From the NCBI GenBank assembly GCA_947382625.1, contig CANDAG010000042.1, forward strand, positions 1 to 32,540: DNA of 32,540 nucleotides, read 5' to 3'. Source of the stretch: an uncultured Lachnospiraceae bacterium (GTDB lineage Bacteria; Bacillota; Clostridia; Lachnospirales; Lachnospiraceae). Shown piece after piece: positions 3,915 to 31,988 of the stretch. The translations under genes and the position numbers were made by a program. The notes below the pieces were generated by a model. It had not been told where the DNA came from. It was given only the letters and a program-made list of their open reading frames with translations, and did no database searches. Each line of letters starts with the position of its first letter. Positions within the stretch are counted from its first letter, which is position 1.

Positions 3915-3990
3915 CACGCGGCTGCCTCGCAATGCGAGACAGCCGTTGTTGACATAAGGATGGCTGGCAAAGCCTGACATCCGTTGTTTA
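3915..3990 (-). repeat. Two palindromic elements (CAAAC/CTTAT family)
   Basis: Copy 2 (3952-3990) has the typical form: ACATAAGGATG, a short stem around GGCAAAGCC, then CATCCGTTGTTTA. Copy 1 (3915-3950) is degenerate but keeps a long stem (GGCTG-c-CTCGC paired with GCGAG-a-CAGCC) and the end CCGTTGTT. The last three bases of copy 2 are the stop codon of the minus-strand gene 3988-4257. Copy 1 may also serve as a 3' stem for the leuS transcript. Confidence 0.8.
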
Positions 3991-4257
3991 TTTACGCGAA
4001 CGCATGGCCATGATCTTTTCAATCTTTGCAGCCTCCTCGGGAGATGCCTCTTTTCGGAGGACTGCCACGATCCTGCTGATCTCTTCCTCAGAAAAGGACA
4101 CGCTTTTCTCCCTCCCCTTTTTGGCTACTGCCATCAGGAATGGAAGGAGCTGCTCCTTTTTAAGACCATTACTCTCAAACATCAGTGCCTGTAAAAATTC
4201 CAGCTTATAAGGATCGATACCCTTCAGCGCTTCATCCTTCATCCAGTTATTCTGCAT
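3988..4257 (-). CDS. Conserved-looking small hypothetical protein
   Basis: An 89-residue, charged, mostly helical protein without a signal peptide or membrane segment. The start is ATG 4257, because GGAGG lies 7 nt before it; the frame runs on to 4278 without a better site. It overlaps the end of the upstream minus-strand gene by 11 bp, so the two are translationally coupled and probably act together. The centre has an acidic/basic helix pattern (SFSEEEISRIVAVLRKEASP), and the C-terminus is basic (MAMRSRK). The stop codon is contributed by a palindromic element. I do not recognise a family and assign no function. Confidence 0.75.
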   Translation of the reverse strand: MQNNWMKDEALKGIDPYKLEFLQALMFESNGLKKEQLLPFLMAVAKKGREKSVSFSEEEISRIVAVLRKEASPEEAAKIEKIMAMRSRK

Positions 4258-4813
4258 GTTGACCTCCAAACATTTCATACATTTGTCTTTGCTCCGGTGT
4301 GAGCATATTCATTAGCATATTCATCATATCAAAGCCTCCGGATGCCCCCCTGGCTTTTCCGTTTTCCCTTTCAAAGGAGGAATCATCATCCTCTCCCGGA
4401 TCGTTAAAGGGGGACTCCATAAAGGAGGCTGCATCCGGCATAAAATCTTTCATCATCTCCATGGTCTGGGACATTTCCTTATACATTTCCATGCTGCGGG
4501 AGATATTCTGAATCTGTTCAAGCTGTGCCTTTTCATTTTCCGTGCAGTAGGGAAGCAGCTCCGAGCATATCTGTGACAGATCCGGTGATTCCTCTCTTTC
4601 CAGACAACCGCATAAAGGATAGGGATGCTTTTTGAAATATTCCAGTGTATAGTTCAACTCCAGAAATTTAATATAAATTGCCATAGATTTCTGGGTTTGA
4701 TTGTCCATGTAGGGCAGCATGATCTTCAGCATCTGTATATGATTTGTGCAGAAGAGAGTATCAAATGCAATTACTTTGGAAGTACCTTCTGCGTTGTGTT
4801 CATTTGGATCCAT
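4247..4813 (-). CDS. Met-rich hypothetical protein
   Basis: 188 residues. ATG 4813 is chosen because AAAGGAG lies 6 nt before it; the frame continues to 4876 without a ribosome site. The N-terminal half is a soluble helical region with scattered Cys. The middle and C-terminus are strikingly Met-rich (SMEMYKEMSQTMEMMKDFM, then FDMMNMLMNMLTPEQRQMYEMF), separated by an acidic linker with EDDDSSFE. The Met-rich amphipathic helices suggest a protein-protein or membrane-surface contact, but this is inference. It overlaps the downstream gene by 11 bp. No family is recognised. Confidence 0.75.
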   Translation of the reverse strand: MDPNEHNAEGTSKVIAFDTLFCTNHIQMLKIMLPYMDNQTQKSMAIYIKFLELNYTLEYFKKHPYPLCGCLEREESPDLSQICSELLPYCTENEKAQLEQIQNISRSMEMYKEMSQTMEMMKDFMPDAASFMESPFNDPGEDDDSSFERENGKARGASGGFDMMNMLMNMLTPEQRQMYEMFGGQHAE

Positions 4814-4867
4814 GACTGCTCCTTTTGCCTGTTTCCATATTTTATGTTTTCGGATCAGCCTGTATGC

Positions 4868-4979
4868 ATCAAACACCGATACACTCTGCGATCCATCCTT
4901 ATGCTAACCGGACAGTTCGCAAAGCAAACTGTCCTTATGCAGACAACGGACAGCAGGCTTCGCAAGCTGTCCTTATGTC
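4868..4979 (+). repeat. Tandem array of three palindromic elements
   Basis: Three diverged units in one orientation: 4868-4903, 4905-4940 and 4941-4979. Each begins with an AAACA/CAACGGACAG-like arm, has a TTCGCAAA-like loop and ends in GTCCTTATG or ATCCTTATG. They lie between two minus-strand genes, upstream of the start of the 4247-4813 gene. Confidence 0.8.
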
Positions 4980-4980
4980 A

Positions 4981-5010
4981 AGAAAAGCAGGCTCTTTTCA
5001 GAGCCTGCCC
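4981..5010 (-). terminator. Rho-independent terminator of the Cys/Gly-rich gene
   Basis: Read on the minus strand, GCAGGCTC and GAGCCTGC form a perfect 8-bp stem with a 6-nt loop (4987-5008), followed by TTTTCTT. It lies about 35 nt past the stop of the gene at 5045-5290. Confidence 0.65.
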
Positions 5011-5044
5011 TTCAGACATGGTGAAAAGAATCCCTCAGGATCGA

Positions 5045-5290
5045 TCAGCAGCCGCAGCCACAGCTGTTATTGCTGCCGTTTCCGCAGAAGGACAGTAAAA
5101 TGATAAGCCAGATGAGATCGCAGCATCCATTGTCGGAATTGTTGCCGGACCCGAATCCGAATCCGTTACCGTTCCCACAGCAGCAAAGCAGGATAATAAG
5201 CCAGATTATGGAACCACATCCAAATCCGTTATTGTTAGAGCCCACGGAACTGTTTCCGCATCCACATCCAGTAGCTGTTAAATCACTCAT
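5045..5290 (-). CDS. Cys/Gly/Asn-rich small protein, probable spore-surface type
   Basis: 81 residues, with ATG 5290 chosen because GGAGG sits 5 nt upstream. The composition is extreme: Gly, Asn and Cys in loops such as GCGCGNSS, CCCGNGNGFGFG and SCGCGC, broken by two copies of a hydrophobic core (IIWLIILL and LIWLIILL), each followed within three residues by CGNG. It is therefore an internal duplication of about 30 residues. Clostridial proteins of this kind are often labelled chorion-class high-cysteine or YjcZ-like sporulation proteins. A sigma-K-like promoter lies upstream (5322-5350) and a terminator downstream, so it forms its own unit. A coat or crust role is inferred, not shown. Confidence 0.75.
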   Translation of the reverse strand: MSDLTATGCGCGNSSVGSNNNGFGCGSIIWLIILLCCCGNGNGFGFGSGNNSDNGCCDLIWLIILLSFCGNGSNNSCGCGC

Positions 5291-5321
5291 ATTTGCCTCC
5301 AAAAGGTTTTTGATTATGGTT

Positions 5322-5350
5322 TATCATATGTACTATGGCTTGTTTGTGTT
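5322..5350 (-). promoter_or_regulatory. Candidate sigma-K-type promoter
   Basis: On the minus strand the sequence reads AACA, 16 nt, then CATATGATA. This fits the Bacillus late mother-cell pattern (-35 mACm, -10 CATAnnnTA). It sits about 30 nt before the start of the Cys/Gly-rich gene. The pattern is short, so a chance match is possible. Confidence 0.35.
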
Positions 5351-5403
5351 TCAGGGAAATAAAAAATTTTTATATGGACATTTCGCTGTGATTATCTTAC
5401 AAT

Positions 5404-5424
5404 AAAAAAAGCCGGTAAAACGGC
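5404..5424 (-). terminator. Weak minus-strand terminator-like hairpin
   Basis: GCCG/CGGC stem (5411-5424), followed on the minus strand by seven T residues. No minus-strand gene is known to its right, so its target is unclear. It may insulate the Cys/Gly-rich gene from transcription through the repeat array. Confidence 0.3.
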
Positions 5425-5432
5425 GTTTGATC

Positions 5433-5549
5433 AACATAAGGATGGCTGGCAAAGCCTGTCATCCGTTGTTTAGCATAAGGATGGCTGGCAAAGCCTGTCA
5501 TCCGTTGTTTAGCATAAGGATGGCTCGCAAAGCGTGCTGTCTGTTGTTT
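5433..5549 (-). repeat. Three-unit tandem array, exact 39-bp period
   Basis: Units at 5433-5471, 5472-5510 and 5511-5549 abut without spacers. The first two differ only at the second base (AACAT/AGCAT). The third is diverged in the stem (GCTCGCAAAGCGTGC). The pattern is CATAAGGATG, GGC-AAA-GCC, then CATCCGTTGTTT. It ends about 20 nt before the start of the zinc-ribbon gene at 5570. Without spacers it is not a CRISPR. Confidence 0.9.
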
Positions 5550-5569
5550 GAGATGGAGAGGAAGAACAA

Positions 5570-6193
5570 ATGAGCGAAGAAAAGAAATTATATTGTACCC
5601 AATGTGGGAATCAAAATGATGCTACATCCAAATTCTGCAGTAATTGCGGTGCAAAATTAGAACGTCCTGATTCCTGGTTTGACTCCGGATCGTCTGATCA
5701 GAAGGAAGGACTATTCTCAGGCGGTGAGACCGGTGCCTTTTTTGAAAAGATTACAGAGGCGGAAGAAGAAAAGCCCGCACCGATCCCGGAAATACAGATC
5801 AATTATGGCTCTCCCCAGCAAAGCTATGATAATAGCAGAACGACAAATTCCAATACATACTATGATCCCCGTCAGTCCGGGTATTATGGAGAAGATCCCC
5901 TTACGGAGAAGCAGAGCGGCGGAAATATCGGCTTTGCCATTGCTTCCTTAGTCTGCGGTATCATCTCCCTGTTATGCTGCTGTCTGGGACTTTTCAGCGC
6001 AGTACTGGCCATAGCGGCTATTGTACTGGGTATTATCACTCTTTGCTTTAAATATGACGGAAAGGGGATGGCAATTGCCGGAATCGCAACGGGAGGCGTT
6101 GCGATCGTAATTGTGATCGCATCCCTGATCATCAGCGGCACTTCTCTTTACAATGATTTTCTCTATGAATTCGCCGATGAATTTTATTATTGA
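5570..6193 (+). CDS. Zinc-ribbon, DUF4190-type membrane protein
   Basis: 207 residues. Residues about 9-29 form a zinc ribbon of two CxxC knuckles (CTQCGNQ...CSNCGAKL). A disordered Gln/Asn/Ser/Tyr-rich linker follows to about residue 118, then a hydrophobic module with the DUF4190 look: IGFAIASLVCGIISLL, LAIAAIVLGIITL, and after GKGMAIAGIATGG a last membrane segment. Three segments are likely, with the ribbon in the cytoplasm. The start ATG has GAGAGGAAG upstream. The 3' end overlaps the next gene by 41 bp, so the trio 5570-6977 is probably one operon. The family has no established function. Confidence 0.85.
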   Translation: MSEEKKLYCTQCGNQNDATSKFCSNCGAKLERPDSWFDSGSSDQKEGLFSGGETGAFFEKITEAEEEKPAPIPEIQINYGSPQQSYDNSRTTNSNTYYDPRQSGYYGEDPLTEKQSGGNIGFAIASLVCGIISLLCCCLGLFSAVLAIAAIVLGIITLCFKYDGKGMAIAGIATGGVAIVIVIASLIISGTSLYNDFLYEFADEFYY

Positions 6194-6635
6194 TCCCGGT
6201 GAGAGAGAACATTACCCTCACCGGAACAGATACCGGGCCGATTTGATTTTTTATCAATTAGGAAAGATCGTGTGGCTTCCGTTTTGCCTGGCCGGCTTCT
6301 GGTTTGCGCAGACAGGTTATGAACGCTATGGGACACTGACCGATTGTGCGATCCGCCAAAGGTGCGGGCTGCCCTGTCCCGGCTGCGGGGGCACCCGGGC
6401 TTTTTATTATCTGTTCCGGGGTTCATTTTTTATGAGCCTGAAGCTGCATCCCGCTGTGATCTTCGGGATACTGGCCTATTTCCACTTTATGGCTCTTTGC
6501 TTTTATCGAAAGAATATAAGCGGGACAATTGCCAAAAAAGAGATTCATATAGAGTACTATCTATATCTTGCGATCCTTGTGATACTGGTCCAATGGATCA
6601 TTAAGATCGTAAGGCTTTTGACGTTTGTTTTTTGA
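6153..6635 (+). CDS. DUF2752 family membrane protein
   Basis: Up to 160 residues with the DUF2752 hallmark CGLPCPGCGGTRAFYYLFRG (Cys pair plus GGTRA) between membrane segments. The other segments lie near IVWLPFCLAGFWF, HPAVIFGILAYFHFMALCF and YLYLAILVILVQWIIKIV. The gene begins inside the preceding one. ATG 6153, 6165 and 6177 are all possible and none has a clear ribosome site, so coupling to upstream translation is likely. The stop TGA (6633-6635) overlaps a palindromic element by two bases. Function is unknown; members often sit beside DUF4190 proteins, as here. Confidence 0.8.
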   Translation: MIFSMNSPMNFIIDPGEREHYPHRNRYRADLIFYQLGKIVWLPFCLAGFWFAQTGYERYGTLTDCAIRQRCGLPCPGCGGTRAFYYLFRGSFFMSLKLHPAVIFGILAYFHFMALCFYRKNISGTIAKKEIHIEYYLYLAILVILVQWIIKIVRLLTFVF

Positions 6636-6673
6636 TCGATAAGCTTGTCCGCAAAGGGTGACAGCTCTTGATC
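6634..6673 (-). repeat. Single palindromic element, type B, reverse orientation
   Basis: On the minus strand it runs from GATCAAGAGCTGTCACC through a TTTGCGG loop to CAAGCTTATCGATC, matching the copies at 15467 and 31875. It begins within the stop codon of the DUF2752 gene. A further fragment (GACGTTTGATTC, 6682-6693) lies just beyond it. Confidence 0.7.
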
Positions 6674-6710
6674 AATGATCTGACGTTTGATTCTAAGGAG
6701 GAGATTTACA

Positions 6711-6977
6711 ATGGATACGAGAACCACAAGTATTGTGGCTTATATGACATGGATCGGATTTTTTGTCGCTTTACTGGCAGGAGATAAGGAAGGCGCCAAG
6801 TTTCACTTAAACCAGGCGCTGGTTATCCTGATATTTTTTCTCCCGGTATTTCTTCCCTGTATCGGGCAGATTTGGGGGATCTTTATGATCGTATGCTGGA
6901 TCCTGGGACTGGTTGCTGCTATCAATCAGGAAGAAAAAGAGGTTCCCCTGATAGGAAGGATACGTCTCCTGAAATAG
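6711..6977 (+). CDS. DUF4870-like small membrane protein
   Basis: 88 residues. ATG 6711 is chosen because AAGGAGGAG lies 8-9 nt before it; the frame extends to 6687 without support. Two or three hydrophobic segments are visible: SIVAYMTWIGFFVALLAG, LNQALVILIFFLPVFLP and IWGIFMIVCWILGLVAAI, with the motif AKFHLNQAL typical of DUF4870 and Tic20-like small proteins. It is the last gene of the trio and is followed by a bidirectional terminator at 7019. Role unknown. Confidence 0.8.
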   Translation: MDTRTTSIVAYMTWIGFFVALLAGDKEGAKFHLNQALVILIFFLPVFLPCIGQIWGIFMIVCWILGLVAAINQEEKEVPLIGRIRLLK

Positions 6978-7018
6978 CATACATTAATCTGAAATATCTA
7001 AATAGTTTACTTCAATCA

Positions 7019-7047
7019 AAAACGCCTGACTACTCCTCAGGCGTTTC
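7019..7047. terminator. Bidirectional terminator between convergent genes
   Basis: AACGCCTGA (7021-7029) pairs with TCAGGCGTT (7037-7045) around a 7-nt loop, with A-rich sequence on the left and T-rich on the right. It can end both the plus-strand trio and the minus-strand lipoprotein gene. The lipoprotein stop codon lies in the loop and one stem arm encodes its last residues. Confidence 0.8.
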
Positions 7048-7611
7048 TGTATTATCATTATTCTCATCAGTATCTTCATATGTAAAAATTTCCTCCGGGA
7101 TATCACCGTGCAAAATAGAAACGATATACTGGAGTCTCGTATTGGCGATCACATAATTCTGCCGTGCCGCGTCCTCTAAGGAAGCATCAAAATCTCCCCC
7201 TTCGTACGCCATATGATAATAGGAGACTGCTTCTGACATATACATACTGGCATCATCGGCAAGCTCATCTACTCCCGGAAAGCAATCAGGAACCTCTAAG
7301 GAGGCCATCTGCTGAAAGGAGGTATCCATAGAATCCAGCAGAGCCAAAAGCTCTGTGACTGCCTGATCGGACTCAGGATTCTGGATGGCATTGATGGAGG
7401 AATCAAAAACCTTTACATTCTCAAAAAACTGATTCATATTTGCCTTATAATTTTCAAGCTCGGCATTACTTCCGCAGCCTGAGAGCGTACCCGCAAGCAA
7501 CAGACATGCCGACAGATATAAAAACCCGGATTTTTTGAGCAAGGTGCCTGCCTGAAGGGAAGGACTTTCTTTTCCGGACAATATTTTGAATAAAAAAAAC
7601 GGATGTTTCAA
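7030..7611 (-). CDS. Putative lipoprotein of unknown function
   Basis: A lipobox is clear: FLYLSACLLLAGTLSGC, with the Cys as the lipid site, so the mature part is anchored on the outer face of the membrane. The mature domain is about 145 residues, acidic and helical, and ends in an Asp/Glu/Asn tail. The start is uncertain. TTG 7611 has the best ribosome site (GAGGTG, 6 nt) but leaves an unusually long leader. GTG 7620 is upstream in frame. TTG 7542 would give an ideal short signal peptide (MLKKSG...) with a weak site. It is divergent from metH and shares a symmetric promoter region with it. The family is not recognised. Confidence 0.75.
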   Translation of the reverse strand: MKHPFFLFKILSGKESPSLQAGTLLKKSGFLYLSACLLLAGTLSGCGSNAELENYKANMNQFFENVKVFDSSINAIQNPESDQAVTELLALLDSMDTSFQQMASLEVPDCFPGVDELADDASMYMSEAVSYYHMAYEGGDFDASLEDAARQNYVIANTRLQYIVSILHGDIPEEIFTYEDTDENNDNTETPEE

Positions 7612-7662
7612 GAGATCCACCTCATAATTTGTCGTATTTTATAAAATTTTTCAGCTACAACT

Positions 7663-7746
7663 AAGGTATCATAGATGTTCTTTTAAGTCAATGATCAGTA
7701 AAACTGGAAAACACTAATTGTAGTTTTGCAAAAATTATGATACCAT
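7663..7746. promoter_or_regulatory. Symmetric divergent promoter region, lipoprotein gene / metH
   Basis: TATGATACC occurs in inverted orientation at 7665-7673 and 7736-7744. Each copy overlaps a matching promoter: minus strand TTGACT, 17 nt, TACCTT (7691 to 7663); plus strand TTGTAG, 17 nt, TACCAT (7718-7746). A second inverted pair, AAAACT/AGTTTT, lies inside (7700-7727). The mirror layout suggests shared control, possibly by one repressor. The -10 hexamers are poor. Confidence 0.45.
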
Positions 7747-7784
7747 TGAAAAAGTAATGCTTTATTAACCTAAAGGAGCTGACT

Positions 7785-10292
7785 ATGACTGTAGAAGAAT
7801 TCAAACAGTTTTCTCATAATAAGATACTTTATCTGGATGGAGCTACGGGCTCTAATCTGATGCGGAGAGGAATGCCTGCCGGAGTCTGCCCTGAAAAATG
7901 GATCCTGGAGCATCCTCATATCCTTAAGGAGCTGCAAAAAGAATATGTACAGGCGGGCAGTAATATCATTTATGCCCCAACATTTACAGCAAACCGGATC
8001 AAGCTTAAGGAATACGGTCTGGAAGACCGTATTGCTGAAATCAACAGCCGGCTGATCGGTCTTTCAAGGGAGGCCGCAGAAGGTAAAGCATTGGTCGCCG
8101 GAGATATCACCATGACCGGTCGGCAACTTATCCCCATGGGAGATATGGACTTCGAAGAGCTGATCCTGGTTTACAAGGAACAGATCCGGCTGATCGCTGA
8201 GGCGGGCGCCGATCTTTTGGTGGTCGAGACCATGATGAGCCTGCAGGAAACCCGGGCGGCTCTTATTGCCGCCAAAGAGGTCTGCAGCCTGCCGGTGATG
8301 GCTACCCTTACCTTTGAACCGGATGGCAGGACTCTCTTCGGGACCGATGCAGTGACTGCAGCTGTGACCCTGGAAAAGCTGGGGGCCTGTGCTGTAGGCG
8401 CCAACTGCTCTACCGGCCCTGACCAGATGAGGACTTTGATCGAAAAGATTTCTAAGGCCGTATCCATTCCGGTGATTGCCAAACCAAATGCCGGAATGCC
8501 TGGCCTGGATGCTGACGGAAATACCGTTTATGATATGGACGCCGATACTTTTGCGGAAGAGATGAAGCAGCTGGTAACGGCCGGCGCAGGAATTCTGGGC
8601 GGCTGCTGTGGAACCTCTCCGGAATACATAAAGAAGCTGGTGATCGCTACCAGGGATATGTATCTTCCTCCCAAAGCGCCGTCCACTGTCCGCTATCTTA
8701 CCAGCGAACGACAGACCCTTGCCTTTGGGCTGGATTCTCCTTTCCAGCTGGTGGGAGAACGCATTAACCCTACGGGCAAAAAAAAGCTACAGGCAGAACT
8801 CCGGGAAGGACGGCTGGATATGGTGCTTGCCTTTGCCGAGGAGCAGGAGGAATGCGGCGCCTCGCTGCTTGATATTAATGTAGGGATGAGCGGCATCGAT
8901 GAAAAGGAAATGATGCTGAAGATCCTGGATGAAGTCACAGTGGCTTCCAATCTGCCCCTTTCTATCGATTCCAGCCATGCCTCAGTAATAGAAGCTGCCC
9001 TTCGCAGATATCCCGGAAGAGCCCTGATCAACTCCATATCCGGGGAAACAGAAAAGCTGAAAAGGCTCCTTCCCATTGCAAAGAAATACGGAGCAATGTT
9101 TATCCTGCTTCCCTTGTCAGATCAGGGACTTCCGGCCAGCCTCGAGGAAAAGATTTCCATCATTGACAGAATATGCCAGATGGCCCTGGATATGGGAATG
9201 ACGAAGGAGGATATTGTGGTGGACGGACTTGTCACCACAATAGGCGCCAACAAAAAAGCGGCAGGTGAGGTATTAGAAACGATCCGTTACTGTAAAAAAA
9301 GAGGGCTGGCTACCATCTGCGGCCTCTCCAATATTTCCTTTGGTCTTCCCGAAAGAAGCTTCGTAAATACCGCCTTTCTTACTATGGCGATCCAGGAAGG
9401 CCTTACCATGGCCATTGCCAATCCCTCCCAGGATCTTCTGGTAAATATGGCCTTCGCCTCTGACCTTCTGATGAATAAGGAGGAAGCGGATATTCGTTAC
9501 ATCGAAAGGATGGCTGCTTATCAACCGCCGGCCCGCTCCGCGAATCGGCTTGTTGATAAAGAAAAGCCCCCGGCTCCGGCAACACCGGTTCCTCTAAAAA
9601 CAGATTCCGCTCAGAAAAAGGCTGATGAAGAAAACCAACACAATATCAACCCTTACGTGGAACACCAGCTTTATCAGGATGTAATGAAGGGAAACCGGAA
9701 ACAGATCAAGGATCATACCAGAGAAACCCTTGAAAAAGAAAAGCTAGATGCCTCCGCTATTTTAAATGAAATACTGCTTCCTGCTATCAATCAGGTAGGA
9801 GAGCTTTTTGATAAAGGAAAATACTTTTTGCCCCAGCTGATCGCCAGCGCAGAAGCCATGAAGCTTTCCATTGAATATCTGGAGCCTTTCCTTGCCACCG
9901 GAACGGAAGACTCGCAAATGCCGGTGGTGGTGATCGCTACCGTAGCAGGAGATATCCATGATATTGGCAAGAATCTGGTGGCGCTGATGCTGAAAAATTA
10001 CGGATTCCGGGTCATCGACCTAGGCAAGGATGTTCCCAGGGAAACCATTGTGGAGGAAGCCATCAAAAACCATGCGCAGATCATTGCCTTATCTGCCCTT
10101 ATGACCACCACCATGCAGGAGATGAAGCTTGTGGTGGAATATGCCAGGCAACAGAAGGCTGATGCCAAAATCATGATCGGCGGCGCCGTCATTACCCCCG
10201 AATATGCAAAGGAGATTGGCGCAGACGCCTATTCCAGGGATGCCGCCGATGCTGTAAAGGTGGCCAAAAAGCTTCTTGGTATGGAGGAATAA
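7785..10292 (+). CDS. metH: Cobalamin-dependent methionine synthase, short form
   Basis: Transfers a methyl group from methyltetrahydrofolate through cobalamin to homocysteine, giving methionine. The 835-residue protein has the homocysteine domain first, with zinc ligands C208 (GANC) and C274/C275 (GGCCGTSPE). A pterin-binding domain follows (from about residue 315, GERINPTGKKK, with LLDINVG and SIDSS). After a Pro/Ala linker come the cobalamin cap and the Rossmann domain with DIHDIGKN, H725 as lower ligand. The SAM-binding reactivation domain of the roughly 1200-residue enzymes is absent, as in many Clostridia, so a separate reactivase is needed. AAAGGAG precedes ATG 7785. No cobalamin or SAM riboswitch is visible upstream. 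Confidence 0.93.
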   Translation: MTVEEFKQFSHNKILYLDGATGSNLMRRGMPAGVCPEKWILEHPHILKELQKEYVQAGSNIIYAPTFTANRIKLKEYGLEDRIAEINSRLIGLSREAAEGKALVAGDITMTGRQLIPMGDMDFEELILVYKEQIRLIAEAGADLLVVETMMSLQETRAALIAAKEVCSLPVMATLTFEPDGRTLFGTDAVTAAVTLEKLGACAVGANCSTGPDQMRTLIEKISKAVSIPVIAKPNAGMPGLDADGNTVYDMDADTFAEEMKQLVTAGAGILGGCCGTSPEYIKKLVIATRDMYLPPKAPSTVRYLTSERQTLAFGLDSPFQLVGERINPTGKKKLQAELREGRLDMVLAFAEEQEECGASLLDINVGMSGIDEKEMMLKILDEVTVASNLPLSIDSSHASVIEAALRRYPGRALINSISGETEKLKRLLPIAKKYGAMFILLPLSDQGLPASLEEKISIIDRICQMALDMGMTKEDIVVDGLVTTIGANKKAAGEVLETIRYCKKRGLATICGLSNISFGLPERSFVNTAFLTMAIQEGLTMAIANPSQDLLVNMAFASDLLMNKEEADIRYIERMAAYQPPARSANRLVDKEKPPAPATPVPLKTDSAQKKADEENQHNINPYVEHQLYQDVMKGNRKQIKDHTRETLEKEKLDASAILNEILLPAINQVGELFDKGKYFLPQLIASAEAMKLSIEYLEPFLATGTEDSQMPVVVIATVAGDIHDIGKNLVALMLKNYGFRVIDLGKDVPRETIVEEAIKNHAQIIALSALMTTTMQEMKLVVEYARQQKADAKIMIGGAVITPEYAKEIGADAYSRDAADAVKVAKKLLGMEE

Positions 10293-10293
10293 A

Positions 10294-10710: not shown

Positions 10711-10732
10711 TGAAAGGAGTGTATATATAAGA

Positions 10733-13416: not shown

Positions 13417-14565
<1,149 letters not shown>

Positions 14566-15098: not shown

Positions 15099-15172
15099 TT
15101 TTATGAGTGATTTCGTTGTAAGAAGTTATGGAAAAATGGTCTGCCAGCAGGCAGCAGAAAGGCTTTTATCTA

Positions 15173-16156
15173 ATGAAGAACGAAGAACCCCCAAAGACAA
15201 TTGAGGTTGTTTACTCACCTCTTTGCGAATCTACAGGTGCCATGATTGGGAAACTCAGACAATGGCTTGACGGAACCGGCGTTCAGATTCATATTTTCCC
15301 GTTCGATTGCTGCCCCCAAGGTCTGAAAAGTATGTTTGGAAGGGGAGAAAACTGCTTTATCGACGTTTTTTATTGTGGTAATAGGATTGATTCCGTACCA
15401 TTACATCAGGACAAAATTTATGCAAGTTTAGGTATCATGCAACGTCTGTCAGATGAGCCGGCGGAAGATCAAACGCTGTCACGCTCCGAAGGCCAGCTTA
15501 TTGATGGAAACACAGCGTCATCGGCTATTACCACCAGAGAGTTGCTGATCAACGCACTCAGATCAGGCGATATCTCTTTCCTTCCGATCAGTCCCGATAA
15601 TTATGTGGACGAGATGTCAATGTGTCTGTGCAACTATCCGTTTGGAAATCCGCCGAAACAATTTCACCGGGAGTGTATGACAATAAAGTCCCGGGTATTT
15701 TCCGATGTCTGGGACAGGGAAGACATTGCAGGAATCTATGCGAAATACAAAGGAAATGTCATAGGTTTGTTAGAAGTAATGCCCAGAGAGATTTTAAAGA
15801 AATATGGATATATGACCGGTACGCTGGGAAATGACAACGCATATCTGTCAATCGGCTGTTATGAAGTGGGGTATGGCATTCCAAGGATTGATATGATCGA
15901 TCTGCTCATGCAACATTTGGAAGCAATATTCCCGCTGTTCCATTGCAAACAGATCGAAGGGGTTGGAATCTATGACTGGGACGATGGTTTTAATCCGTAT
16001 TGGGTTTACAAAAAATATGGTTTTCAGGAGACAGAAAAACTATCAGAAAATGTTGTAGTCATGTCCAGATCTATGACCAACGTTCCAAACCATCAAACGC
16101 CGATATGCTCCGCGAATCATCTTATTGACCAAACGTTGCCACACTCCGCAAGGTAG
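15173..16156 (+). CDS. Thioredoxin-fold/GNAT two-domain protein carrying palindromic inserts
   Basis: 327 residues from ATG 15173; an in-frame ATG 15128 is an alternative with no ribosome site. Residues about 8-90 look like a thioredoxin-type fold (IEVVYSPLCESTGAMIGKL, then a CC pair in FDCCPQG). Residues about 116-305 look like a GNAT domain (VIGLLEVM, then NPYWVYKKYGFQETEK), as in YoaP-like proteins. The linker between them contains a 39-bp palindromic element read as DQTLSRSEGQLID (residues 99-111). The tail is a second element, HQTPICSANHLID (307-319), plus part of a third that supplies the TAG stop. Substrate unknown. Confidence 0.75.
   Translation: MKNEEPPKTIEVVYSPLCESTGAMIGKLRQWLDGTGVQIHIFPFDCCPQGLKSMFGRGENCFIDVFYCGNRIDSVPLHQDKIYASLGIMQRLSDEPAEDQTLSRSEGQLIDGNTASSAITTRELLINALRSGDISFLPISPDNYVDEMSMCLCNYPFGNPPKQFHRECMTIKSRVFSDVWDREDIAGIYAKYKGNVIGLLEVMPREILKKYGYMTGTLGNDNAYLSIGCYEVGYGIPRIDMIDLLMQHLEAIFPLFHCKQIEGVGIYDWDDGFNPYWVYKKYGFQETEKLSENVVVMSRSMTNVPNHQTPICSANHLIDQTLPHSAR
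15467..15505 (+). repeat. Palindromic element inside a coding region (domain linker)
   Basis: 39 bp from GATCAAACGCTGTC to CCAGCTTATTGAT, starting exactly on a codon boundary and adding 13 codons (DQTLSRSEGQLID). It lies between the two domains of the host protein. Confidence 0.85.
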
Positions 16157-16167
16157 CCTATTGAATG
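16091..16167 (+). repeat. Two palindromic elements forming the 3' end of a gene
   Basis: The first unit (16091-16129) is 39 bp, codon-aligned, and read as HQTPICSANHLID. The second (16130-16167) begins in the same register (QTLPHSAR) and then supplies the TAG stop at 16154-16156. Both end in CTATTGA or CTTATTGA. The pair lies between convergent genes. Confidence 0.85.
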
Positions 16168-24184: not shown

Positions 24185-24196
24185 TCTGATTATAAT
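24168..24196 (+). promoter_or_regulatory. Strong sigma-A promoter of zapA
   Basis: TTGAAA (24168-24173), 17 nt, TATAAT (24191-24196), overlapping the 3' end of ruvB. The predicted start is near 24203, giving a 47-nt leader to ATG 24250. Confidence 0.75.
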
Positions 24197-24249
24197 ATTT
24201 CGTAAGGAACTTGGACAAGCTGTATATTTGTACATGGAGGATAAACCGG

Positions 24250-24654
24250 ATGTCAGTTAAAACAGATACGGAAGTGATTATCGGCGGCAAAGTATTTACT
24301 CTGAGCGGTTATGAGAGTGAAGAATATCTACAGAAGGTTGCGTCCTACATCAATAACAAGACAGCAGAGTATGCAAAGGTGGAATCCTTTAAGCGTCAGC
24401 CTTTAGATACTCAGAGCGTCCTGCTTCAGCTCAACATTGCAGACGACTACTTCAAAGCCAAAAGACAGATCAGCCTTTTGGAAGAAGAGATCCAGAATAA
24501 GGACAAAGAGCTTTATAATCTGAAGCACGAGCTGATCGCCTCTCAGATTAAGTTAGAGAACACTGAAAAGAACGTAAAGGCTCTCCAAAAAGAAGCAAAC
24601 GAAAACGCAAAAAAGATCGTAAGGCTGGAAACAGAACTGAAAAACAACGGATGA
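24250..24654 (+). CDS. zapA: Cell division protein ZapA
   Basis: 134 residues. ZapA binds and bundles FtsZ at the division ring. The N-terminal ZapA domain is clear (TEVIIGGKVFTLSGYESEEY, LQKVASYINNKTAEY, LLQLNIADDYFKA), followed by a long coiled coil (EEEIQNKDKELYNLKHEL to the end, rich in Lys, Glu and Asn). ATG 24250 has GGAGG 9 nt upstream, while the frame runs on to 24211 without a site. It has its own promoter and a terminator after it. Confidence 0.9.
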   Translation: MSVKTDTEVIIGGKVFTLSGYESEEYLQKVASYINNKTAEYAKVESFKRQPLDTQSVLLQLNIADDYFKAKRQISLLEEEIQNKDKELYNLKHELIASQIKLENTEKNVKALQKEANENAKKIVRLETELKNNG

Positions 24655-24658
24655 TCAT

Positions 24659-24687
24659 AAAGCTGTCTTAACCAGACAGCTTTTTAT
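24659..24687 (+). terminator. Terminator of zapA
   Basis: AAAGCTGTCT pairs with AGACAGCTTT around TAACC, with a T-run TTTTTATT. It lies just after the zapA stop and immediately before a repeat array. Confidence 0.85.
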
Positions 24688-24688
24688 T

Positions 24689-24772
24689 AACATAAGGATG
24701 GTGTGGAACACGACATCCGTTGTTTAACATAAGGATGGTGTGGAACACGACATCCGTTGTTTAACATAAGGA
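24689..24772 (-). repeat. Tandem array of identical 37-bp palindromic elements
   Basis: Units at 24689-24725 and 24726-24762 are identical, and a fragment (AACATAAGGA, 24763-24772) starts a third. Each reads AACATAAGGATGGTGTGG, then AACACGACATCCGTTGTTT. The stem GGATG/CATCC with inner TGT/ACA is kept. Identity suggests a recent duplication. It ends about 8 nt before the ribosome site of the next gene. Confidence 0.9.
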
Positions 24773-24790
24773 GCAGCTAAAGGAGCAGGC

Positions 24791-27046: not shown

Positions 27047-28512
27047 GTCATCTGGAAATCTATGTCAGCGAATATTCCCGCTATGTGATTACTCTGCTGA
27101 TCATATTATATACTTATGAAAGCTTTGCCGTATTCAGGTATGCCAAAGAAGAGCAGCGAAAAGGAATTTATGCAAGGCAGTGCTTTTTGATGTTTGCCTT
27201 TCATTTCAGCTGCTTTGTAACCATCTGCTTTGAGACAGGAGATATCACGTATCTGTTTTTTTATGCCTTTCAGCAGATCATGCTATACGCCTTTACGGTT
27301 TTGTACCGGATGCTGTATCCAAAGTCAAACCGTCTTGTGAGCAACAATATGTCCATGCTGCTTTGTATCGGATTTGTGATCCTTACAAGACTTGATATGA
27401 CAAAGGCCATCAAACAGTTTATTATTGTGACAGGTTCCCTGGCCATCGCCCTTGTGATCCCGTTTTTTGTCCATAAATTCAAGCTGCTCAAAAAAATGAA
27501 ATGGATCTATGCTCTCGCAGGCGTTGCCGCCCTGGGGATCGTAATGATCCTGGGCCAGACAACCTATGGCAGTAAGCTTTCTTATTCCATTGCGGGCATC
27601 ACCTTTCAGCCCTCGGAATTTGTAAAGATCCTGTTTGTATTTTATATTGCCAGCTCTCTCCACGAGGAATCCGGCTTTTTTGAAGTCTTTACCACCGCGG
27701 TAGTGGCTGCCGCTCATGTGATTTCCCTTGTGATCTCCAAGGATCTGGGCAGCGCCCTTATCTTTTTTATAACGTATGTGCTGATGGTTTTTGTGGCAAC
27801 CCGAAATTATCTGTATGTACTGGCAGGCGCTGTGGGCGGTTCCGGAGCGGCATACGTTGCCTTTCAGGTTTTCCGGCACGTTCAGGTCCGGGTACAGGCC
27901 TGGCGGGATCCCTGGAGCGTCATCGATTCTGACGGCTTTCAGATCACGCAGTCCCTGTTTGCCATATCCAGCGGCGGTTGGTTCGGACTGGGTCTGTATA
28001 AAGGGACTCCCGGATCCATTCCCTTTGTGGAAACCGACTTTATTTTTTCCGCCATTGCGGAAGAGCTGGGAATCCTGGCCGCTATCAGCCTGATCCTGAT
28101 CTGTGTCAGCACTTTTCTCATGGTTATGGCTATTGCATCAGGAACCCGCGATAAATTTTATCAGCTCATTGCCTTTGGTCTGGGAGTTACTTATATTTTC
28201 CAGGTATTCCTCACCATTGGGGGCGGCACAAAATTTATTCCCCTTACAGGCGTTACCCTTCCTTTTATAAGCTATGGAGGCAGCTCTATCCTCACTACCA
28301 TCGTTATGTTTGCCGTAGTCCAGGGGCTTCAGATCATACGTCGTGAGGAAGAGGAAGCGCTGGAGCTGGCTCTTAAGAAACGGCGGATGAAAAAACGGCG
28401 GCTCCAAAAACAGACACAGGGAAATCAAAAGCTGTCACGCTCCGCGAGTCAGCTTAATGATTTAAAGCATAGGAATGATCTGGCAGGAGATGAGATTGAA
28501 GACGAAGAATAA
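27043..28512 (+). CDS. FtsW/RodA/SpoVE family glycan polymerase
   Basis: 489 residues of the SEDS family, which polymerises lipid II into peptidoglycan with a partner transpeptidase. About ten membrane segments are visible. Conserved motifs include FQPSEFVKILFVFYIAS, SKDLGSALIFFI, the R-x-x-x-W-x-D/P region with VQAWRDPW, GGWFGLGLYKGTPG and TGVTLPFISYGGSS. It overlaps the U32 gene by ATGA, and the PBP gene begins inside its 3' end, which fits a SEDS-PBP pair. The cytoplasmic tail is very basic (KKRRMKKRRLQKQTQ) and contains a palindromic element read as NQKLSRSASQLND (residues 461-473). Whether it acts in elongation, division or sporulation cannot be told. Confidence 0.9.
   Translation: MSHLEIYVSEYSRYVITLLIILYTYESFAVFRYAKEEQRKGIYARQCFLMFAFHFSCFVTICFETGDITYLFFYAFQQIMLYAFTVLYRMLYPKSNRLVSNNMSMLLCIGFVILTRLDMTKAIKQFIIVTGSLAIALVIPFFVHKFKLLKKMKWIYALAGVAALGIVMILGQTTYGSKLSYSIAGITFQPSEFVKILFVFYIASSLHEESGFFEVFTTAVVAAAHVISLVISKDLGSALIFFITYVLMVFVATRNYLYVLAGAVGGSGAAYVAFQVFRHVQVRVQAWRDPWSVIDSDGFQITQSLFAISSGGWFGLGLYKGTPGSIPFVETDFIFSAIAEELGILAAISLILICVSTFLMVMAIASGTRDKFYQLIAFGLGVTYIFQVFLTIGGGTKFIPLTGVTLPFISYGGSSILTTIVMFAVVQGLQIIRREEEEALELALKKRRMKKRRLQKQTQGNQKLSRSASQLNDLKHRNDLAGDEIEDEE
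28423..28461 (+). repeat. Palindromic element inside the FtsW-family gene
   Basis: 39 bp from AATCAAAAGCTGTCACGC to CAGCTTAATGAT, codon-aligned and giving NQKLSRSASQLND in the cytoplasmic tail. The register is the same as in the 15467 copy. Confidence 0.85.
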
Positions 28513-29944
28513 AAAAGACGGCCTGCGGCCTCCAAAAAATAAAGAAATCCTGATCGTAGCCTGGTGCTTTGTTCTGCTTTTTGCGGGAATGTCCGGGTAT
28601 ATCACTCATTACTGTGCAACCCACAGACAGGAGCTGATCAATAACAGCTATAACGGCAGACAGCAGATGCTGATCGCCCAAAACAGAAGAGGGCGGATCC
28701 TTTCAGCGAAGGGAGAGGTGCTTGCCCAGACCATAGAAGACGAAGAGGGAAACGAAAAAAGAGAATATCCTTATCAGAATCTTTTTTCCCATGTGGTAGG
28801 GTATGCCACCAACGGAAGAATGGGCGTGGAAGCCCAGGCAAACTATTATCTGATCAACTCAAACGCTCCTTTATCCCAAAAGGCGGGGCTGGAGCTGGCC
28901 GGGGAAAAATATCCCGGAGATGATGTGTATACCACCCTTGACGTCAATCTTCAGCAGGTGGCGTCCACTGCTCTGGGCGTTTACCAGGGGGCGATCCTGG
29001 TGACCGAGCCGGATACCGGCAAGATTCTGGCTATGGTCTCCAAACCTGATTTTAATCCGGAGGAAATTGCAGCCATATGGGAGGACCTGATCGCGGATGA
29101 AGACAGCAGCATTCTCCTAAACCGCGCAACCCAGGGACTCTATCCCCCCGGTTCCACATTCAAGATCATGACAGCCTTAGAATATATCAGAGAAAACCCG
29201 GATTCCTATTCAGGCTACAGCTACAGCTGTACAGGCGCCCTTACCAGAGGACAGGACAGGATCCAGTGTTATCACGGGACAGTGCACGGCGGCGTGAATT
29301 TCACCACCTCCTTTGCCAAGTCCTGTAATACCTCCTTTGCCAACATGGGATTTACCTTAAACAGAGTCTCCTTCGGGGATACCTTAGAAGGCCTTTTGTT
29401 CGGGCAGGAGCTGCCTGTAGCCTTTCAGTCCAATATCAGCCGTGTGGATATGTCTGCAGATACTGCTGACTCTGAAATGATGCAGATTTCCATCGGGCAG
29501 GGCACCACCTCTATTACGCCGCTTTTGCTCAACATGATCACCTGCGCAATTGCCAACGATGGCGTTTTGATGGAGCCTTATGTGGTAGATCATATAGAAA
29601 ACAGCGCCGGAAATTCCGTGAAAGCATTCAGTTCTTCCTCCTATGGCAAGCTTATGGAGCCGGAAGAGGCACAGATCCTGAAATCGCTGATGGAGGACGT
29701 GGTGGAAGAGGGGACAGCCTCCCGGTTAAAGGGACTTTCCTACACCGCCGCAGGCAAGACCGGTTCTGCAGAATATGGAACCGTAAAAGGCGATTCCCAC
29801 GCCTGGTTTACAGGCTTTGCCCCTGTGGATGAGCCCCGGATCTGTGTGACCATCATTATCGAGGGGGCAGGAGCCGGAGGGGATTATGCGGTTCCCATTG
29901 CCAAAAGGATCTTTGACGCTTATTTCCAAGAGGTAGCAGAATGA
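28490..29944 (+). CDS. Class B penicillin-binding protein (transpeptidase)
   Basis: 484 residues. It crosslinks peptidoglycan, probably with the FtsW-family protein encoded just upstream. A membrane segment (ILIVAWCFVLLFAGMSGYI) is followed by a short N-terminal pedestal with RRGRILSAKGEVLAQT. The transpeptidase motifs are STFK (S222-K225), SCN (S278-N280, in AKSCNTS) and KTGS (K423-S426). The pedestal is shorter than in PBP2 or PBP3, closer to PbpA types. The start is uncertain: ATG 28490, TTG 28496 (AGGAG 6 nt upstream) and ATG 28475 are all possible. It overlaps the previous gene by 23 bp from the chosen start. Confidence 0.9.
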   Translation: MRLKTKNKKDGLRPPKNKEILIVAWCFVLLFAGMSGYITHYCATHRQELINNSYNGRQQMLIAQNRRGRILSAKGEVLAQTIEDEEGNEKREYPYQNLFSHVVGYATNGRMGVEAQANYYLINSNAPLSQKAGLELAGEKYPGDDVYTTLDVNLQQVASTALGVYQGAILVTEPDTGKILAMVSKPDFNPEEIAAIWEDLIADEDSSILLNRATQGLYPPGSTFKIMTALEYIRENPDSYSGYSYSCTGALTRGQDRIQCYHGTVHGGVNFTTSFAKSCNTSFANMGFTLNRVSFGDTLEGLLFGQELPVAFQSNISRVDMSADTADSEMMQISIGQGTTSITPLLLNMITCAIANDGVLMEPYVVDHIENSAGNSVKAFSSSSYGKLMEPEEAQILKSLMEDVVEEGTASRLKGLSYTAAGKTGSAEYGTVKGDSHAWFTGFAPVDEPRICVTIIIEGAGAGGDYAVPIAKRIFDAYFQEVAE

Positions 29945-30300
29945 AATTTTATAAATACCTTTATATCGGTGATACAGTCAGTAATCCGGCTAAGATCAAA
30001 CGGAGGCTGAAGCTTCATATGGGAGTATCGGTTTATGTGATCGCGCTTTCCATGGGGCCGGATCAGCTGGAGATTTTTCATGGCGGATATCTGAAGCAGA
30101 AATATTACAGATCGCATCCCCCCATAATCGTAGGGATCGCTTCCTGCCATGAAGAGGCAATGGAGATCGTTTTGAAGATCACCCAGGAATGCCTGGACGC
30201 CACCGGAGGCTGTGATCTGAAAACGTATCTAAAACAACGGACAGTACGCCCCACGAACTGCCCTTATACTAAACAACAATGCAGCAACAGCGGAGGGTAA
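29941..30300 (+). CDS. Small hypothetical protein with repeat-derived tail
   Basis: 119 residues, overlapping the PBP gene by ATGA. The first 97 residues look like one small alpha/beta domain (KFYKYLYIGDTVSNPAKIKR, GVSVYVIALSMGPDQLEIFH, PPIIVGIASCHEEAMEIVL) without a signal peptide or membrane segment. The last 22 residues are odd: KQRTVRPTNCPYT (98-110) comes from a palindromic element, and the rest is Gln/Ser/Asn/Gly-rich. It is located in a cell-wall operon, so a cytoplasmic accessory role is possible (inference). The family is not recognised. Confidence 0.8.
   Translation: MKFYKYLYIGDTVSNPAKIKRRLKLHMGVSVYVIALSMGPDQLEIFHGGYLKQKYYRSHPPIIVGIASCHEEAMEIVLKITQECLDATGGCDLKTYLKQRTVRPTNCPYTKQQCSNSGG
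30232..30269 (+). repeat. Palindromic element at the 3' end of a coding region
   Basis: AAACAACGGACAGTACGC, then ACGAACTGCCCTTATAC, a type A unit in the codon-aligned register. It encodes most of the host protein's tail. Confidence 0.75.
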
Positions 30301-30301
30301 T

Positions 30302-31285
30302 ATGATCACGATACTTCTAACAATTTTAAAGGTTCTGGGTATCCTTCTCCTTATCCTGCTCTCTGCGTTGATCCTGCTGATCCTTCTGGTACTGTTTGTA
30401 CCGGTCCGCTACCGCGTCAGACTGTGCAGAAAAGCAGAGGATGGCATTCCGATAACCATAGATCTTAAGGTTACCTGGCTCATGCACCTGATAAATGCAT
30501 CCTTTTCCTATCCGAAGGCGGCTTTTTTGAAGGTAAGGCTTCTTTGCTTTACGGTTTTCCGGTCTGATAAGAAGAAAACGGCTTCCGCTCCGTCTGAAAA
30601 GAAAAAGAAACACAAGGAGATAAAAACGGAAAATCAAACGGATGAGGGGATGACGACGCCCCAGAAGACAGCGCCCGAACCAAAACCCCCAAAATACCGA
30701 AGCGGACCTGAAAACACTGAAAGCACTGAAAATGCCGAAAAAGCAAACGCGGCAGAAGATGCGAAAGAGGAAACAAAGAAAGAGACTCAAGGCACTGTCT
30801 TTTCAAAAATAAGAAGGGGTCTGGAGCGTTGTAAGGAATTTTTTCAAAAACTCCTGTCTTTGTTTCAAAATATCCGGTACACAATTACCAGGATATGTGA
30901 TAAGATAAAACATATTGTAAATCATATCCAATATTATATGAAAATCCTGAAAAGCGATACCTTCAGCCGGGCATGGACAGTATGCTCAGGGCAGGCTCTT
31001 TCCCTGTTAAAGAGTATTCTTCCGGGGAAGTTTACCGGAAGTCTTGTGATCGGCACAGGAGACCCTGCCGGCACAGGGCAGGTATTGGCCGCTTATGGTA
31101 TGTTATACCCGCTGCTTGGCAATCATATAAATGTCACGCCGGATTTTGAGCGGCAGATCATCGAGGGTGAGCTTTTTATCAAAGGAAAAATAACCATATT
31201 TAAAGGATTAAAAACCGCATGGAAGATTTACTTCAACCGGGATCTGCGGCGTGTGATCCAACTATTTAAAAGGGAGGCAGCATAA
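30302..31285 (+). CDS. DUF2953 family protein (YtfI-like)
   Basis: 327 residues. A long N-terminal hydrophobic helix (LLTILKVLGILLLILLSALI onward) is followed by a beta-rich part (VPVRYRVRLCRKAEDG). A 100-residue Lys/Glu/Pro/Thr-rich linker with little fixed structure comes next, and a C-terminal domain contains GSLVIGTGDPAGTGQVLAAY, the DUF2953 signature. In Bacillus the related ytfI sits directly before ytfJ (gerW), as here, which supports a forespore-membrane or sporulation role. ATG 30302 follows GGAGGG. The next gene begins immediately after the stop. Confidence 0.88.
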   Translation: MITILLTILKVLGILLLILLSALILLILLVLFVPVRYRVRLCRKAEDGIPITIDLKVTWLMHLINASFSYPKAAFLKVRLLCFTVFRSDKKKTASAPSEKKKKHKEIKTENQTDEGMTTPQKTAPEPKPPKYRSGPENTESTENAEKANAAEDAKEETKKETQGTVFSKIRRGLERCKEFFQKLLSLFQNIRYTITRICDKIKHIVNHIQYYMKILKSDTFSRAWTVCSGQALSLLKSILPGKFTGSLVIGTGDPAGTGQVLAAYGMLYPLLGNHINVTPDFERQIIEGELFIKGKITIFKGLKTAWKIYFNRDLRRVIQLFKREAA

Positions 31286-31687
31286 ATGGCAGAAAACAAT
31301 TTTGCAGGAGTGATCGATTCTCTGATGAAGGGGATGAGTACTGTTCTATCAACCAAGACAGTGGTAGGAGAGGCCACCAGTATCGGTGACACCATCATCC
31401 TTCCTCTGGTAGATGTAACCTTCGGCGTAGGGGCCGGGGCCAGTGTAGGAGACAAGAAGAACGGCGGGGCAGGCGGATTTTCCGGAAAGCTGACTCCCAG
31501 CGCAGTATTAGTCATCAAAAACGGCAGCACCAAGCTGGTAAACATCAAAAATCAGGATACCGTCACCAAGGTACTTGACCTGATCCCGGATATCGTTGAC
31601 AAATTTACCGTACCCAAGGAAGAAATGATAGAGGATGATACGGCAGTAGATATTGCTTTTCCGGAAGAAGATGTGGACACGCAATAA
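31286..31687 (+). CDS. gerW: GerW family sporulation protein (YtfJ)
   Basis: 133 residues, the usual size. The family pattern is present: SLMKGMSTVLSTKTVVGEA, GDTIILPLVDVTFGVGAGAS, a Gly-rich loop with GGAGGFSG, and TPSAVLVIKNG. In Bacillus, YtfJ/GerW is made in the forespore and is needed for germination responses. GGAGG lies 9 nt before ATG 31286. It directly follows the DUF2953 gene, as in Bacillus. It ends with an acidic tail (PEEDVDTQ). Confidence 0.92.
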   Translation: MAENNFAGVIDSLMKGMSTVLSTKTVVGEATSIGDTIILPLVDVTFGVGAGASVGDKKNGGAGGFSGKLTPSAVLVIKNGSTKLVNIKNQDTVTKVLDLIPDIVDKFTVPKEEMIEDDTAVDIAFPEEDVDTQ

Positions 31688-31736
31688 AAGGAACGCAATT
31701 GCATAAGATAAAGTAAAGCATAGGCAGAGGACTCCC

Positions 31737-31874
31737 ATGAAAAGACTGATCGGATTTATAGCATTCTGGATTGCAGTGGGAATGCTGCTTATGCTTTTTC
31801 TTGCCCATCACTATCTGATCGCGCTGATCATCATTGCCCTTCTTTTACTGCTTGGCTATAATTTTTATCTATAA
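31737..31874 (+). CDS. 45-residue hydrophobic membrane peptide
   Basis: MKRLIGFIAFWIAVGMLLML begins a small protein with two hydrophobic helices joined by AHHY, ending LLGYNFYL. AGAGG lies 7 nt before the ATG, and the gene follows gerW by 49 nt in the same direction. Similar short membrane proteins occur in Clostridia. The stop codon is followed directly by a palindromic array. Function unknown. Confidence 0.7.
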   Translation: MKRLIGFIAFWIAVGMLLMLFLAHHYLIALIIIALLLLLGYNFYL

Positions 31875-31988
31875 CATCAAACGCTGCCTCGCAAAGCGAA
31901 ACAGCTTATTGAATCAAACGCCGGCCTGCTTCCGCGAGACAGCTTATTGAATCAAACGTTGCCTCGCCCCGAAAGCGGGCTTATGGAC
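31875..31988 (+). repeat. Tandem array of three type B palindromic elements
   Basis: Units at 31875-31911, 31912-31949 and 31950-31988, each opening with ATCAAACG and closing with CAGCTTATTGA or GGGCTTATGGA. Loops are TCGCAAAGCGA, CTTCCGCG and CCCCGAAAG. The stems differ between units, but changes are paired, so folding is kept. The array starts at the base after a stop codon. Confidence 0.9.

Follow-up and report, generated by a model that had tools for sequence, protein, structure and literature searches.

REP-like hairpin repeats of Lachnospiraceae face A-rich tracts and often stable hairpins

A 32,540-nucleotide stretch of DNA from an uncultured Lachnospiraceae bacterium (hereafter the window), which is contig 42 of a 4.18-Mb draft genome that is 88% complete (the source genome), carries many copies of a palindromic repeat of 37-39 bp. 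These repeats are real and abundant, and they have been inserted repeatedly over evolutionary time; from their arrangement, we infer an enzyme and its chemistry. They are probably non-autonomous mobile elements, similar to repetitive extragenic palindromic (REP) sequences and built on a 34-nt core, which an enzyme supplied in trans would insert toward the feet of hairpins. Units point their TTAT end at an A-rich tract and, in roughly half of the cases with a clean flank, at a stable hairpin such as an intrinsic terminator. The original prediction for this DNA, which listed 23 copies, holds up with respect to fold, spread, and movement. It named a REP-type tyrosine (Y1) transposase as a possible partner, which our searches do not support, and it missed the orientation toward hairpins.

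Fold, subtypes, and abundance of the repeats

The 23 listed copies were oriented and read, and 18 of them were aligned (alignment A1) to give a covariance model, R1. A second model restricted to the core, R2, was built on alignment A6, which contains 64 copies from the source genome, including 10 from the window. A relaxed regular expression, which found 67 units compared with 33 in reversed DNA, was dropped in favor of strict patterns.

Each unit is a 34-nt hairpin core with short, subtype-specific ends. From the 5' end, it consists of an outer stem, an internal loop, an inner stem of four to five pairs, small mismatches, three mostly G+C pairs, and the loop. The internal loop is conserved and asymmetric, with AC on the 5' side opposite TTA on the 3' side. 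Type A units have the form AACA-AC-GG...CC-TTA-TGTT and type B units the form TCAA-AC-G...C-TTA-TTGA; both subtypes had been proposed originally and are borne out here, and additional subtypes are present in relatives.

The fold is kept by covariation up to the outermost pair. In A6, 89.9% of cells pair, compared with 75.5% in shuffled alignments, and structures slid out of register pair in 22-42% of cells. Paired stem changes, also part of the original prediction, are real: two-sided changes number 110 against 41.0 expected, both sides have changed in 9 of 12 pairs, and the covariation score is 0.386 compared with 0.155 in shuffles. The outer pair beside CAA/TTG is T-A in 45 of 61 type B copies from the genus, A-T in 10 of 15 copies in genome G382 and 15 of 21 in G021/G023, and C-G in 8 of 10 copies in G132. 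A likeness of TTATGTTAA to Xer/dif sequences was set aside, as other subtypes change those bases with compensation. A search of the window at Rfam gathering scores yielded no matches.

Covariance-model searches beyond the window found copies throughout the source genome, in most of the genus, and patchily in other Lachnospiraceae. The source genome contains at least 129 R1 matches, counted among the best 150 of 1658 first-look candidates. To estimate density, we sampled one 20-kb stretch from each of 18 contigs (bases 40001-60000 in 15 of them and a shifted position in 3, to avoid DNA already in the data set). R2 gave 30 matches in these 360 kb, or about 350 per genome, and 24 matches in 300 kb, or about 330 per genome, when the shifted stretches were left out. 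With 16 R2 matches (E ≤ 0.01) in 32.5 kb, the window is approximately sixfold denser than the sample (Poisson p 3e-8, for a window that had been flagged for its copies). Strict two-ended patterns identified 95 units in 0.79 Mb of source-genome DNA, about half of which was chosen around hits, compared with a single unit in the same DNA reversed.

Within the genus (Parablautia and relatives), 31 of 37 genomes have R1 matches; counts per genome are lower bounds, with the best 82 candidates scored in each. R1 matched none of 42 genomes sampled from other genera, and the complete genome CE91-St56 has 23 R1 matches. A wider scan of the Lachnospiraceae with R2, again giving lower bounds (best 17 candidates per genome scored), was positive in 18 of 397 genomes and 17 of 334 genera, a patchy distribution. 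Of the 16 positive genomes outside the genus, G260 has two hits and 12 have a single one, in some cases close to the threshold; the richest are G132 (19), G382 (18), and G252 (8). A search for viral carriage with three strict patterns against IMG/VR returned zero hits for each, and no clear flip with replication strand was visible by eye among the listed hits of G007 and CE91-St56. Other dispersed repeats of approximately 60-190 bp (L237 7366-7569 and L236 16972-17136) occur in several copies in G007.

Orientation toward A-tracts and hairpins

The two flanks of isolated units from the genus differ. Beyond the first two or three bases, the left flank is weakly A/T-rich, whereas the right flank has A at fixed positions. 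In type B (33 copies), A is found in 91, 88, 82, and 82% of copies at offsets 4-7 after TTATTG; in type A (127 copies), it is found in 84 and 86% at offsets 2-3 and in 81, 79, and 72% at offsets 6-8. We then counted hairpins in the flanks, skipping pattern copies with another unit-like core in the 45-nt flank, which left 197-198 clean right flanks and 214-216 clean left flanks (read outward) from 314 to 316 unique copies. A stable hairpin, defined as a fold of -10 kcal/mol or lower, is present in 104 of 197 right flanks compared with 35 of 214 left flanks (Fisher p 4e-15) and with 43 of 600 random sites carrying AAAA at the same offset (Fisher p 9e-41); because the flank copies are not independent, these p values are too small and serve as a guide at most. 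A strict terminator definition gave 48 of 198 right flanks, 14 of 216 left flanks, and 46 of 1000 random positions.

The gene end after window ORF (open reading frame) 24211-24654, which is zapA-like, allows the same place to be followed across species. In the window, a terminator hairpin (24659-24685, recognized by comparison with relatives) is directly followed by two type A units on the minus strand: 24689-24724, whose TTATG end points toward the terminator (right-flank fold -14.5 kcal/mol), and its tandem partner 24726-24761 (R2 39.5 bits each). In G034, two type A units lie upstream of the terminator (plus strand) and two ACAA-type units downstream (minus strand), all facing inward. Degenerate units are found upstream of the terminator in G020 and G002. 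G021 and G023 carry one ACAA-type unit and the remnant of another upstream (plus strand), oriented toward a hairpin of different appearance at this position (-22.0 kcal/mol). The terminator has no unit in G012, G013, G015, or G033, where weak R1 matches in the latter two coincide with the terminator itself and were not counted; G029 has no clear unit, and G007 and G018 have neither terminator nor unit. At this gene end, clear full-length units all point their TTAT end to the hairpin.

Close neighbors are arranged head to tail in 22 of 24 pairs in the source genome and 41 of 41 in other genomes. Gaps between them are 2-7 nt and copies are dispersed, which differs from a CRISPR-type repeat/spacer layout. 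Nine of the 63 head-to-tail pairs (3 from the source genome, 6 from others) join different subtypes. Same-type neighbors are somewhat more alike than random pairs (0.868 vs 0.794 in the source genome; 0.912 vs 0.853 in others), and therefore some arrays also grow by local duplication. The arrays, the likeness of their members, and a one-unit difference between G021 and G023 would each be expected if the repeats spread without any dedicated enzyme, by replication slippage, hairpin-primed copying, or gene conversion; CGTC-type REPs are likewise described without a known transposase (PMC3733652). However, scattered single copies, the one-sided orientation of flanks, and arrays of mixed subtype need directed insertion, and we regard such enzyme-free spread as improbable.

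In the explanation that we favor, insertion by an enzyme acting in trans, this enzyme would recognize a unit folded from one DNA strand and, on single-stranded DNA, would attach the unit's TTAT end at the 5' foot of a target hairpin. A bidirectional terminator offers an A-tract foot on both of its strands and would thus accept insertion from either side; head-to-tail arrays would form because the foot at the 5' end of a unit itself (CAAAC or AAAC) is similar to the A-rich target. This one joining rule would also account for the mostly extragenic position of the copies, and no cellular role is needed. A more specific version is plausible but tentative: a hairpin-seeking element of 37-39 bp that a class of recombinase or transposase not yet tied to palindromic repeats would attach, always in one polarity, to the A-tract at the 5' foot of a DNA hairpin already in place (a terminator or an earlier unit). 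Intrinsic terminators would then serve as a safe harbor for genome-wide spread in Lachnospiraceae.

The position of units relative to genes bears on whether they might instead be functional RNA or DNA parts of gene ends, kept by selection for termination or for protection of mRNA 3' ends. Although 80% of the DNA concerned is coding, 231 of 242 model hits lie outside called genes (calls came from a simple script that missed some ORFs, such as 15128-16156), and 25 of these 231 have no called gene on one side. A functional role would suit this location, the proximity to stops and terminators, and the conserved fold. However, units occur in both orientations to transcription: once the 242 hits had been reduced to 219 by deduplication, codirectional type A units were sense in 35 cases and antisense in 53 (p 0.07). 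Units also come and go between species at one gene end, and their distribution is patchy; we consider a functional origin very unlikely. The median distance from the upstream stop is 17 nt for sense type A units and 96 nt for antisense ones; an intervening terminator would be consistent with the longer distance.

Empty sites and candidate enzymes

Eight regions of the window were compared with G012, the nearest syntenic genome among those examined, whose 20-kb stretch is free of R1 matches at E ≤ 0.05. Units at 13432-13511, 24689-24763, 28423, 30232, and 31875-31988 are missing in G012 while their flanks align, and the place orthologous to the 13432-13511 pair holds other sequence; in the remaining regions, either the flanks have diverged too far or G012 lacks the gene. 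A comparison of G018 units with G007 at six places, with noisy alignments, found several missing in G007. Because sites are empty in relatives, the units move or are copied, as had been proposed. In the closest pair of genomes, G021 and G023 (95% identical), the same units occur in the overlapping loci, apart from one array with a length difference of a single 38-nt unit. Judged from these alignments, insertion is evident between species and is not seen in progress. While looking for a target-site duplication, we found that AA or AX dinucleotides flank the units on both sides in a subtype-specific manner.

Consistent with the original remark that no transposase accompanies the repeats, we found no mobility gene among the inspected ORFs next to units. 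Clustering of 1194 ORFs within 400 bp of units produced no cluster that reads as a mobility gene among the 15 widest, and none of the 20 inspected ORFs (of 26 with units on both sides, as a full-length parent of a DDE-transposon MITE would have) reads as a transposase or other mobility gene.

We searched the source genome and the 37 genus genomes for Y1 transposases using PF01797. The source genome, in its 88% complete state, has one match, located beside a tnpB-like region; we take this locus (L050, G000:C99) to be an IS605-like element in which a region spanning two ORFs represents tnpB. The 2,690 bases around this match contain one non-significant model hit (9.2 bits, E 0.32). Y1 matches are present in 21 of the 37 genus genomes and absent from 16, some of which are incomplete. 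Among these 16, 11 have R1 matches and 7 have 26 or more (72, 71, 54, 45, 43, 41, and 26). Four of the seven are nearly or fully complete: G007 (100% complete, 45 matches), G013 (98%, 43), G020 (94%, 71), and G002 (97%, 26). The other three are 59-88% complete. The mean R1 count is 30.9 with Y1 and 23.3 without (p 0.30).

These data led us to reject Y1 or RAYT (REP-associated tyrosine transposase) proteins as the general partner, as some element-rich genomes lack a Y1 match and R1 counts do not differ with Y1 presence. The small hairpins, high copy number, and one-sided orientation do recall REP/RAYT and IS200/IS605 systems, more than half of the genus genomes have a Y1 match, and REPtrons can be lost by deletion (PMC3733652), so a classical REP family moved by a RAYT or another Y1 (IS200/IS605-type) transposase, present or since lost, deserves consideration. 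With similar counts in genomes with and without Y1, no credible unit near the source genome's own match, and no GTAG tag on the units, we find this unlikely.

Copying through RNA by a reverse transcriptase that targets intrinsic terminators is also unlikely in our assessment. A precedent exists in group IIC introns, which insert at intrinsic terminators and, in a smaller fraction, at attC motifs (PMC4424553). However, units lie on both sides of terminators, and Rfam searches of the window and of 416,658 further bases (396,658 from the source genome) gave no match to group II introns, reverse transcriptases not having been searched genome-wide.

Several observations weigh against insertion toward hairpin feet by a trans-acting enzyme. 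No enzyme has been found, and a Y1/RAYT partner is unlikely in the element-rich genomes that lack a Y1 match. At the chosen threshold, a stable hairpin is lacking in 93 of the 197 clean right flanks, and within the window a stable hairpin is faced by 3 of 11 unit or array ends (4942-4979, 24689, and 31953-31986). The flank copies include orthologous places and array relatives and are thus not independent. G028 has a short fragment similar to the right end of a unit on the downstream side of the terminator discussed above, pointing away from it. No insertion was seen between near-identical strains, and exact junctions and any target duplication are not fixed, because the intergenic DNA at empty sites has diverged. 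Survival may account for part of the location bias, yet it leaves the one-sidedness unexplained.

The spread of small palindromic repeats is only partly understood: GTAG REPs have RAYT transposases and no enzyme is known for CGTC REPs (PMC3733652). The present units form a family in gut Firmicutes that is abundant, conserved in structure, and successful even in genomes where Y1 has no match, and they offer a testable polarity rule, namely that a unit is turned toward the A-tract at the foot of a hairpin, which is often a terminator. If the proposed explanation is true, it would point to an as yet undiscovered hairpin-handling enzyme in common gut bacteria. Arrays and terminator-side location would both come from one rule, and the repeats would provide a natural assay for single-strand hairpin insertion.

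Window copies and known systems

With filters off and E ≤ 1, R1 returned 27 matches in the window: 20 of the 23 listed starts, one new copy, and six weak matches (≤17.1 bits). Recovery of the 20 is largely by construction, as 18 are training rows, but the repeat family itself is real. The listed starts 6634, 17244, and 20663 have no R1 match and are, by eye, at best decayed copies. The new copy, missed originally, lies at 9517-9558 inside metH (R1 E 2.4e-9) and is outside the training set. Four of the weak matches are the opposite strand of listed copies, and the other two (24640-24689 and 24654-24687) include a plain terminator, so weak R1 matches can be ordinary terminators.

At the left of the window, a decayed minus-strand unit (3914-3949; R1 16.7 bits, E 0.014) is in tandem with a type A unit (3951-3988, minus; R2 53.8 bits). 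A head-to-tail array of three follows on the plus strand: a hybrid or decayed unit at 4865-4906 (R1 22.5 bits), a type A unit at 4907-4938 (R1 23.4 bits), and another at 4942-4979 (R2 49.0 bits). The TTATG end of this last unit points toward an A-tract and hairpin at 4983-5012, recognized from sequence and fold (right-flank fold -18.6 kcal/mol). A minus-strand tandem array with a 39-bp period comprises three type A units at 5433-5470, 5472-5509, and 5511-5548 (R2 55.4, 52.6, and 41.7 bits); the unit at 5433-5470 faces a short G+C stem followed by seven T, a weak fold of -6.3 kcal/mol. Between these two arrays lies a small minus-strand ORF (5045-5302) encoding a Gly/Cys/Asn-rich peptide. The remaining units are all on the plus strand, except for the pair at the 24659-24685 terminator. 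Type A tandem partners occupy 13433-13470 (R2 48.8 bits) and 13472-13509 (R2 33.3 bits), a type B unit lies in the 3' end of a Pfam FtsW/RodA-family ORF (28424-28461; R2 52.6 bits), and a type A unit lies in the 3' end of ORF 29941-30300 (30233-30270; R2 37.1 bits). Three type B units form an array at 31877-31912 (R2 23.8 bits), 31914-31950 (R2 27.5 bits), and 31953-31986 (R1 18.5 bits), the third of which faces an A-tract and hairpin at 31991-32020 (-18.9 to -19.8 kcal/mol). This A-tract and hairpin are also found at the unit-free site in G012. An A+T-rich tandem repeat of 23-24 bp, in about two copies, is located at 32326-32379.

Some units lie in frame inside genes. The unit in metH is type B-like (9520-9557; R2 46.2 bits) and occupies a variable linker, where three orthologs differ in sequence and gaps; from this comparison, it likely arrived by insertion. 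ORF 15128-16156 contains a type B unit at 15468-15505 (R2 46.7 bits) and a second near its end at 16092-16129 (R2 40.4 bits), both in frame in the translation, and the tandem partner of the latter (16130-16163; R1 26.6 bits), also type B, holds the stop codon. This ORF has no Pfam match and no homolog in 149 genomes drawn from other genera of the family, the rest of its own genus lying outside this draw. Translated DNA at G000:C4:17192-17260 matches the C-terminus of the ORF. Elsewhere, a few units are in frame within a RAMP-superfamily gene (L077), a DUF308 gene (L102), an amine-oxidase-like gene (L108), and a glycosyltransferase-like gene (L066). The RAMP-superfamily (CRISPR-type) gene at L077 4391-4996 has a type A unit within its reading frame. 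Around the unit in L108, the NAD-binding match spreads 84 residues over 65 profile positions, as would be expected from an insertion.

The original statement that no standard feature type explains these repeats went too far, since palindromic repeats of a REP-like kind are already known. Several other systems share individual traits with the units. IS200/IS605 elements and RAYT systems have hairpin ends and a one-sided orientation to the target; unlike IS200/IS605, the units have no internal gene or consistent Y1 partner, and their target includes the foot of a hairpin. Integron attC sites are, like the units, imperfect hairpins, with unpaired bases; no attC core motif was seen by eye and no cassette arrangement was noted, integrases not having been searched. 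Rickettsia palindromic elements can also sit in frame inside genes, but they are longer, occur in a different phylum, and are presumably unrelated in sequence. Group IIC introns are far larger ribozymes with a reverse transcriptase. They resemble the units in having intrinsic terminator motifs as targets (PMC4424553), whereas the units measure 37-39 bp and lie on both sides of terminators.

The closest resemblance is to REPs, which are likewise imperfect palindromes of 20-40 bp, high in copy number, and mostly non-genic, with some inside ORFs (PMC3733652). Most REPs carry GTAG or CGTC tags (PMC3733652). Neither tag is present in alignment A6 or the flank profiles of the units, whose ends, CAA(A)CG and CTTAT(T)G, are conserved and have AA or AX as neighbors, and the asymmetric AC/TTA internal loop is a further difference. 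Like CGTC REPs, which are reported without an associated transposase gene, the units have no partner transposase that we could see. However, CGTC REPs form mostly head-to-head dimers, with negligible head-to-tail dimers, and the units form head-to-tail arrays; GTAG families do include head-to-tail dimers (PMC3733652). A few REP families sit inside target palindromes (PMC3733652), unlike the units, which sit beside a hairpin foot in fixed polarity. The main text of PMC3733652 does not contain the strings Firmicutes or Clostridi, and RepRanger (PMC12306157) reports very high counts per genome, which suggest a looser definition. We found no description of these repeats in Lachnospiraceae in the open-access literature, subscription papers being mostly outside this search. 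Tests for a REP tag and for a Y1 partner were negative, and in size and number the units are REP-like.

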